A DNA stretch of 64,000 nt from Paenibacillus sp. OVF10 (lineage in GTDB: Bacteria > Bacillota > Bacilli > Paenibacillales > Paenibacillaceae): the NCBI GenBank assembly GCA_022836915.1, contig CP094668.1, positions 310,001 to 374,000 on the forward strand, given 5' to 3'. Below the pieces are notes generated by a model, which saw only the letters and a program-made list of their open reading frames with translations, searched no databases and was not told the origin of the DNA. The position numbers and the translations under genes are program-made. Of this stretch, positions 577 to 22,082 are shown piece by piece. The stretch's first letter is position 1. Each line of letters opens with the position of its first letter.

Positions 577-627
577 CACATGAGGTTAGTGTTCATTAAC
601 TAAAATAGTCAGGATGTGTCATTTTCC

Positions 628-1205
628 ATGAAAAAAATATTAATTATTCAAGGCAATCCCGTCTCACCCAGTTACAACGGCGCAATCGCCGAGGCTTACC
701 GCAAAGGTGCGGTGCAAGCTGGTGCTGACGTCCGCATGATCACCTTGAACGAGTTGGCGTTCAACATGAATCTGGAAGGAGGATATCGTAATAAACTTCC
801 ACTTGAACCAGATTTGCTGGAGGCCCAAGAAGCAATCAAATGGGCCGAGCATCTCGTATGGGTGTTCCCAATATGGTGGGGAGGACCGCCTGCCCTGCTG
901 AAAGGTTTTGTAGACCGAATCTTCATGCCAGGTTACGCCTTCAAGTATCAAAAGGAAAACCCTTCCCCGATCAGTTGCTCAAAGGCCGTACCGCCCGCAT
1001 GATCACCACGATGGATGGTCCGAGCTGGTACTTCAAATGGTTCCAAGGTGAGCCTGCACATAAAATGATGAAAATCTCCACATTTGGACTTACCGGCATC
1101 AAACCCGTGCGGATAACAACCGTAGATCAAGTTGGGAAGAAGTCAGATGAACAGAGAAAGAATTGGTTGGATAAGATCGAACAGCTTGGGCGGAAGATGG
1201 GGTAA
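628..1205 (+). CDS. NAD(P)H dehydrogenase (quinone), flavodoxin fold; one frameshift
   Basis: Flavodoxin-like NAD(P)H:quinone oxidoreductase of the MdaB/YwrO/KefF type, about 192 residues once repaired, which is the family length. It is expected to bind FMN or FAD and make two-electron reductions of quinones in the cytoplasm. The N-terminus has the flavodoxin strand KKILIIQGNP; the middle shows the family segment FPIWWGGPPALLKGFVDR around residue 80; the second half contains the LLKGRTARMITTMDGP segment. The ATG at 628 follows AGGATG at 611-616; a GTG at 616 is possible. The frame breaks at about 950-959. One extra A in the run at 950-953 restores the family-like sequence YQKGKPFPDQLLKGR, so the shift is probably an assembly error. 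Confidence 0.85.
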
Positions 1206-1387: not shown

Positions 1388-1438
1388 ACAAAAAAAGGTT
1401 GTCCCTACGTCTTGTTCAAGACGTAGGGGACAACCCTT
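1388..1438 (-). terminator. Terminator of nik operon
   Basis: A near-perfect stem of about 17 bp (GGTTGTCCC...GGGACAACC) with a tiny loop, followed on the minus strand by a run of seven T. It lies beyond nikE, with repeat copy B1 between them. Confidence 0.85.
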
Positions 1439-1453
1439 TAGCATTCATTATGA

Positions 1454-1650
1454 TCTAACGAACCGTAAACACGCTATTAGTGCCATTTTCGATAAGTATG
1501 CGGTTTAACGAATCGTAGACGCGTTATTTCCTCGATCTGTGTATCTTTGGGCAGTTTTCCACTGGTTTGCACCGGAATAACTTCACTGAGGTTCGTTACA
1601 TTTTGCATTCCACGCTAAATCGCCATTTAACGCTCATTCGGTTCGTTAGC
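1454..1650. repeat. Repeat family B, copy 1: four 25-bp units, two direct then two inverted
   Basis: Units at 1454-1478 and 1504-1528 read TCTAACGAAC...ACACGCTATT on the plus strand. Units at 1576-1600 and about 1626-1650 are the same motif on the minus strand. Unit starts are offset by 0, 50, 122 and 172 bases. The copy at 21886-22082 has exactly the same offsets, although the sequence between units has diverged. The whole is an interrupted palindrome of 197 bp between nikE and its terminator. Confidence 0.85.
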
Positions 1651-21885: not shown

Positions 21886-22082
21886 TCTAACGAATCTGAT
21901 ACACGTTATAAGCCCCTTTTAGCATGGATCTAATATCTAACGAATCTCAGACACGTTATTGTGCCTAGTTTGGTCCTTTTTCAAGCTAAATAACTACTTT
22001 TCCGAAGAATAGCGTTCCTGAGGTTCGTTAGAATTTATATTTCAGAATTTTACCCTGAATAGGTTGTCTCAGGTTCGTTAGC
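21886..22082. repeat. Repeat family B, copy 2: four 25-bp units, two direct then two inverted
   Basis: Plus-strand units at 21886-21910 and 21936-21960 (TCTAACGAAT...ACACGTTAT), minus-strand units at 22008-22032 and 22058-22082. Offsets 0, 50, 122 and 172 equal those of the copy at 1454-1650. Both copies lie in the gap beyond the 3' end of an ABC-transporter operon, but before its terminator at 1454 and after it here. Confidence 0.88.

Follow-up and report, generated by a model that had tools for sequence, protein, structure and literature searches.

The chromosome of Paenibacillus sp. OVF10 carries, in many dispersed places, an element made of four short units in the order forward, forward, reverse, reverse (F1, F2, R1, R2). 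The distances between the units are nearly fixed, and the spacers carry A/T-rich tracts every 10.1 bp. We propose, with a probability of about 0.6, that a four-dimer complex of a putative protein wraps the roughly 190 bp of double-stranded DNA and has a role in DNA topology or in the nucleoid. The layout, the spacing steps, the A/T phasing, the low rate of change in the unit cores, the core dialects and the genome position are seen directly in the genomes compared here.

Layout of the element

The window is the whole stretch of 64,000 nucleotides that was analyzed, positions 310,001-374,000 of a single-contig genome of 7,243,271 bases. It contains two copies of the element, both flanked by convergent ORFs (Table 1). 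An earlier note, made from the sequence of the window, had described copy 1 as four 25-bp units at offsets 0, 50, 122 and 172, and all of this is exact (1454-1478 and 1504-1528 on the forward strand, 1576-1600 and 1626-1650 on the reverse strand). The scan for 23-mer units gives copy 2 offsets equal to those of copy 1, as the note had also stated.

Table 1. Features of the two element copies, in window coordinates.
Feature	Position	Strand	Basis
Copy 1, four-unit element	1454-1650	.	25-mer positions and unit scan
Copy 1 unit F1, 23-mer	1456-1478	+	unit scan
Copy 1 spacer 1, 27 bp	1479-1505	.	coordinates from unit scan; A/T profile from family
Copy 1 unit F2	1506-1528	+	unit scan
Copy 1 central spacer, 47 bp, 70-centre class	1529-1575	.	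unit scan; family spacing classes
Copy 1 unit R1	1576-1598	-	unit scan
Copy 1 spacer 3, 27 bp	1599-1625	.	coordinates from unit scan
Copy 1 unit R2	1626-1648	-	unit scan
Terminator-like hairpin adjoining copy 1, outside the element	1393-1439	.	inverted repeats
Copy 2	21888-22080	units 21888 (+), 21938 (+), 22008 (-), 22058 (-)	unit scan

With up to 3 mismatches the 23-mer pattern matches the genome 182 times, against 21 times for the same pattern read backwards as a control, and thus stands well beyond chance. A weight-matrix scan of stretches around pattern matches found 47 clusters of two or more units. At least 44 of these are complete four-unit elements, a lower bound because the stretches were picked around the matches listed, and the remaining 3 clusters have 2 or 3 units. 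The order is F, F, R, R in 44 of 44 complete elements. The distance F1-F2 is exactly 50 in 41 of them and R1-R2 exactly 50 in 42; the 23-mer offsets are 0/50/120/170 in 28 elements and 0/50/119/169 in 9, while the 7 that remain deviate by at most 4 nt. Some units of an asymmetric subfamily in this genome contain TAAGGAAC. The earlier note had proposed a genome-wide search with an alignment of spacings, and held that random unit number and spacing in other copies would speak against its reading. The search shows rigid spacing in at least 44 complete elements, so that the spacing in the host genome is not random; the number of units does vary elsewhere, with 5 to 7 units in three copies of genomes G388 and G237.

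Two observations concern the assembly itself. An oxidoreductase-like gene beside copy 1 (window 616-1205) is broken over two frames or carries a stop, and the dnaA gene (G000:C1:662857-663341) is likewise frame-split or stop-carrying, which suggests sequencing indels. Identical 57-bp pieces of the element lie near both ends of the contig (G000:C1:6642-6698 and 7213140-7213196), a hint of overlapping ends or of a duplication.

Spacing and unit structure

A loose scan across genomes gave 180 four-unit sets, from which 26 were dropped because their outer spacing lay beyond 48-52 or their centre fell in neither 57-62 nor 67-73; many of the dropped sets, with offsets of 48 and 62, appear to be units scored out of register. 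This filter is circular for spacing, and the spacing claims therefore rest on the 44 host elements and on 84 elements (80 listed loci) found with a pattern whose outer spacings were fixed at 50 and whose centre was free over 55-85. Three of the 84 are identical to earlier elements and 55 are less than 75% identical to every earlier one. Among these matches listed, the centre is 59 in 19 elements, 60 in 45, 63 in 1, 69 in 2 and 70 in 17; that is, 64 fall at 59-60, 19 at 69-70 and one at 63. The looser collection of four-unit sets likewise falls mostly into these two classes. Centres of 60 and 70 differ by a step of about one helical turn. By arithmetic, at 10.1 bp per turn, the outer centre-to-centre distances of 50 correspond to 5 turns each and the central one of 61 or 71 to 6 or 7.

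Each 23-bp unit resembles a 21-bp dyad, TAACG-N11-CGTTA. In the genomes G166 and G244 the palindrome TAACGATG-N5-CATCGTTA has TAACG at positions 1-5 and CGTTA at 17-21, and asymmetric units have TAACG and CGYTA at the half-site positions of the palindrome. The simplest reading of these sequences is that a dimer would bind the unit through a strong half-site and a weak one. Palindromic relatives alternate in spacing, mostly 51/62 in G166 and G244 and 51-52/73-74 in genus g23, and long arrays of up to 11 palindromic units (L284-L287 in G166, L293 in G348) are spaced 51/62 or 51-52/73-74.

A/T phasing of the spacers

In 162 non-redundant half-elements, taken after the 26 sets had been dropped, the sequence of the spacers is poorly conserved and their A/T content is conserved, with peaks near positions 20-23, 30-33, 41-42, 47-49, 70-73, 80-83 and 91. 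The period was analyzed in the 128 sets with an outer spacing of exactly 50, which reduce to 75 non-redundant ones. A wave of 10.1 bp fits the spacer A/T content with an R2 of 0.50 both in the 60-centre set (20 elements) and in the 70-centre set (30 elements), and exceeds all 500 shuffles in each. The bootstrap interval of the period is 10.10-10.15, and the 10.75-bp GC period of a strong gyrase site does not fit, R2 at 10.75 bp being 0.01-0.04. DNA outside the 60-centre elements has no significant A/T period, and that outside the 70-centre elements has a weak one of 6.5 bp (R2 0.14, p 0.01).

The rhythm was replicated on unseen elements for the 59 and 60 centres only, two fresh 70-centre elements being left. 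Among the matches listed, 18 fresh 60-centre elements, less than 75% identical to earlier ones, have a period of 10.1 bp (R2 0.62, above 300 of 300 shuffles), and five fresh 59-centre elements one of 10.0 (R2 0.44). An additional A/T peak in mid-element distinguishes the 70-centre form from the 60-centre form, as if a whole turn had been gained or lost. An A/T rhythm near 10 bp runs through the element, as would be expected of a wrapped nucleoprotein site. On our own argument, a rhythm of 10.1 bp, being below 10.5, suggests a left-handed DNA path, unlike the 10.75-bp motif of gyrase.

Constraint at orthologous loci

A 1.9-kb query from the copy 2 locus has matches in 54 of 75 genomes of the genus. 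The element is missing at 9 of 30 fetched loci, and one orthologue (L263) is decaying. Rates of change were taken from 19 of the 30 loci, chosen for an element match; the window's own identical row was excluded, L265 is without the element, L273, L281 and L282 (TAACGAT) were left out, and gaps counted as changes. In 17 relatives, and with the exclusion of loci where the element was lost, changes amount to 24/748 in the unit cores (3.2%), 106/816 in the unit middles (13.0%), 226/1717 in the spacers (13.2%) and 335/1360 in the flanks (24.6%). Variable columns number 16 of 44 in the cores against 71 of 101 in the spacers (Fisher p 0.0002) and 70 of 80 in the flanks (spacer versus flank, p 0.007). 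In a comparison of orthologue pairs at loci found via the motif, the 11 pairs left after 7 of 18 were dropped for spacing off by 1-3 nt give changes of 32/704 in cores, 31/308 in middles and 177/1109 in spacers.

The suggestion of the earlier note that geometry is selected as a protein array is well supported: spacing holds across genera, the centre shifts by about one turn, A/T tracts recur every 10.1 bp, and cores vary less than spacers at orthologous loci. Its alternative, an RNA cruciform, is not supported by the comparison of units and spacers. As a transcribed RNA element or cruciform the element would pair F1 with R2 and F2 with R1, and copy 2 does fold far better than shuffles (z -5.97), copy 1 modestly so (z -1.85). 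Some folding is expected from any inverted repeats. In 20 host elements of the family studied here (family B), the likeness between the supposed pairing partners does not exceed that of shuffled units (F1-R2 z -1.6, F2-R1 z -1.3), which speaks against covariation. Across genomes these partners do show excess likeness (F1-R2 z 5.0, F2-R1 z 3.5), and units that cannot pair show it to as large a degree (F1-F2 z 6.5, R1-R2 z 5.3), the pattern that species dialects would produce. Facing spacers are not complementary beyond their composition (0.387 versus 0.374, sd 0.010). In a search of Rfam with the window, no family reaches its gathering score, and the element itself is free of hits even when E values up to 1 are allowed. 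We consider an RNA element very improbable.

Genome position

Convergent ORFs flank 18 of 31 elements in G025 and G011, 13 of the 29 host elements counted and 3 of 11 in G388, compared with 10 of 63 long intergenic regions from randomly chosen parts of the host genome. The host count leaves out elements represented by short duplicate loci only. Among the matches listed across genera the convergent context holds for 26 of 74 elements versus 11 of 84 other intergenic regions (p 0.001), with 10 further elements lying at the edge of a locus. Divergent contexts were found for 1 of 31 elements in G025 and G011, 1 of 29 in the host and 0 of 11 in G388; among the cross-genus matches listed they are not significantly rarer than elsewhere (12/74 versus 23/84, p 0.12). 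Of the 31 elements from G025 and G011, two fall within an ORF call.

The half of the chromosome around the origin contains 39 of 47 elements in the host, 20 of 23 in G025, 18 of 19 in G011 and 14 of 16 in G036 (Kolmogorov-Smirnov p 3e-6 to 1e-3 against uniformity, with dnaA as reference). The 47 host positions are a merged set from which 5 chance-like pairs and one duplicate were removed. Because 9-17% of randomly chosen reference points perform no worse than dnaA, and because three of the four genomes share orthologues, this is a bias and not a pin-point location.

A position that is intergenic, dispersed, origin-biased and often between convergent genes would also suit an intergenic element bound by gyrase, which in Paenibacillales would correspond to BIME-2 of E. 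coli. Gyrase sites of E. coli are drawn downstream of transcription and enriched in some BIME-2 (PMC6379681). The gyrase motif has a period of 10.75 bp over about 130 bp (PMC6379681), as against 10.1 bp here. The cores are species-specific, which suggests a dedicated protein, whereas gyrase is present in nearly all bacteria. These differences make a gyrase site quite unlikely.

Distribution, dialects and spread

An exact three-unit TAACGAA pattern was found in 87 of 392 Paenibacillales genomes, which represent 21 of the 49 genera. By our count the reversed control has matches in 9 genomes, a single one in each apart from G136, whose 7 matches may belong to another repeat family. When the sampling is widened to the class, 19 of 398 genomes have a match, every one of them in Paenibacillales, and 0 of 360 sampled genomes of Bacilli outside this order have a match. 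Named carriers among the matches listed include Paenibacillus, Saccharibacillus and Cohnella; carriers of the 193-bp form include, among the matches listed, Paenibacillus amylolyticus and P. xylanexedens.

The TAACGAA pattern is blind to TAACGAT genomes and to a TAAGGAA subfamily, so that absence here means absence of that pattern. Five Paenibacillus genomes (G159, G010, G245, G020 and G029) have 58 to 125 three-unit TAACGAT matches each, on both strands, and no three-unit TAACGAA match; one TAACGAA pair is present in G029. The spacing is 50/70/50 in 10 of 10 elements measured in TAACGAT genomes. Unit cores in other lineages are TAACGAAAC (G388), TAACGATAC (G243) and TAACGATTG (G240). A core that differs genome-wide is what a change in the specificity of one protein would be expected to leave behind. 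A search for the TAACGAT type adds 11 genomes to the 87, several of which qualify through just one match or through palindromic arrays. By these patterns the element is missing from the majority of the genomes sampled in the order, and it is thus dispensable there.

In some genomes the element also spreads or amplifies, as near-alike copies and tandem duplications indicate. Very similar copies are listed in G071 and G388, and whole elements are repeated head to tail together with their flanks at L264 (G754; three, about 327 bp apart) and L183 (G388; two, about 280 bp apart). The earlier note had argued for selection rather than recent copying, which holds for the diverged B copies of the host and not for G071 and G388. 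A scan of viral contigs (IMG/VR) found 3 contigs with the element, and nearby ORFs were read in two. There the elements (L231:8803-8985 and L233:9541-9723) lie in or near gene clusters that we take to be contractile-tail-like. The presence of elements in contigs called viral indicates that prophage-like regions carry the element as well.

Such copies raise the question of a mobile element. MITEs and transposon ends with inverted or direct repeats are short and non-coding, have two sites per inverted end and form subfamilies, and the element shares these traits. F1F2 and R1R2 would then be paired transposase sites at the two ends, and the copies products of transposition, a reading that agrees with the sharp outer boundaries, the subfamilies, the patchy distribution and the similar copies just described. 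The element differs in that 155 elements have no consistent target-site duplication, which very old copies could have lost (over 168 cells of length, offset and set, z is scattered from -2.9 to 3.3 and is highest in the 11 elements of G388). It also has no autonomous partner that we could see: in a non-exhaustive search of the genomes, the sole gene-enclosing F-F...R-R pair, L171:1494-2922 in G388, is an insertion of about 1.3 kb, presumably of the IS4 type, which splits an element at its centre and encodes a transposase-like ORF of 373 aa. Core constraint at one fixed locus and a 10.1-bp A/T wave are not expected of dead copies either. We consider a MITE-like mobile element unlikely.

Comparison with known systems

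Several known kinds of chromosomal site resemble the element in part. The parS, Noc and matS sites are single short palindromic protein sites that are dispersed non-uniformly along the chromosome; the units of the element are likewise of palindromic type, dispersed and unevenly placed. To our knowledge no parS-like chromosome-organizing site combines four sites in phase with spacers whose A/T content is phased as well. Nucleosome positioning sequences have an A/T content with a period of roughly 10 bp over 150-200 bp, and the element differs from them by its four strong sequence-specific sites and its bacterial host.

The E. coli REP/BIME elements, including BIME-2, are also dispersed, intergenic, inverted and near the 3' ends of genes. 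BIME-2 contains gyrase sites (PMC6379681). The present element differs from REP/BIME by its four fixed sites, its helical-turn spacing, an A/T rhythm of 10.1 bp rather than the 10.75 bp of gyrase, and the lack of stem covariation in tests of pairing between units. For RemA of Bacillus, wrapping of DNA round an octameric ring has been proposed, with 7-bp protections and 3-bp gaps, a 10-bp rhythm (PMC8481266). The element shares with RemA-bound DNA a rhythm near 10 bp and a proposed wrapping. RemA sites are described as poorly conserved AT-rich direct repeats in promoters (PMC8481266), whereas the element has strong dyads at gene ends. RemA was rejected as the wrapping protein: two RemA genes are present in all of the 40 genomes compared, 20 with the element and 20 lacking it, so that gene number does not track the presence of the element.

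MITEs, gyrase sites, REP/BIME and the Rfam families each fail a tested feature, and no named system fits. The earlier note knew of no described element with this layout, and our searches of the open-licence literature and of Rfam, which found no described element with a matching layout, agree. Intergenic repeats that are dispersed over a genome, and oligomers that wrap DNA, are both known in themselves.

A proposed DNA-wrapping complex

From these features we infer protein binding, a dimeric state, wrapping and a function. As double-stranded DNA, the element would serve as the platform to which a sequence-specific and probably dimeric protein, encoded elsewhere, binds. One dimer would bind each 23-bp unit, taken as an asymmetric version of the 21-bp dyad. 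At intervals of 5, then 6 or 7, and again 5 turns, the four dimers would share one side of the helix and merge into one complex. The spacer DNA, A/T-rich once per turn, would bend round this core over about 185-195 bp in the fashion of a nucleosome. The likely job of the complex would be to constrain or insulate DNA topology, or to organize the nucleoid. Such a role is likely from the location of the copies: most are found away from promoters and in the half of the chromosome around the origin, and convergent genes often flank them.

Tentatively, and at odds somewhat below even, Paenibacillales may have a counterpart of the positioned nucleosome, with a dedicated four-dimer core on about 190 bp, dozens of platforms per chromosome, dialects that change together and a whole-turn geometry. 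The dialects (TAACGAA, TAACGAT and others) would provide natural specificity variants for finding the putative protein. If the proposed complex exists, dozens of DNA-wrapping sites are built into the chromosomes of many species in a large order, and bacterial nucleosome-like particles, supercoil barriers between convergent genes and the co-evolution of a protein with its sites would become directly testable.
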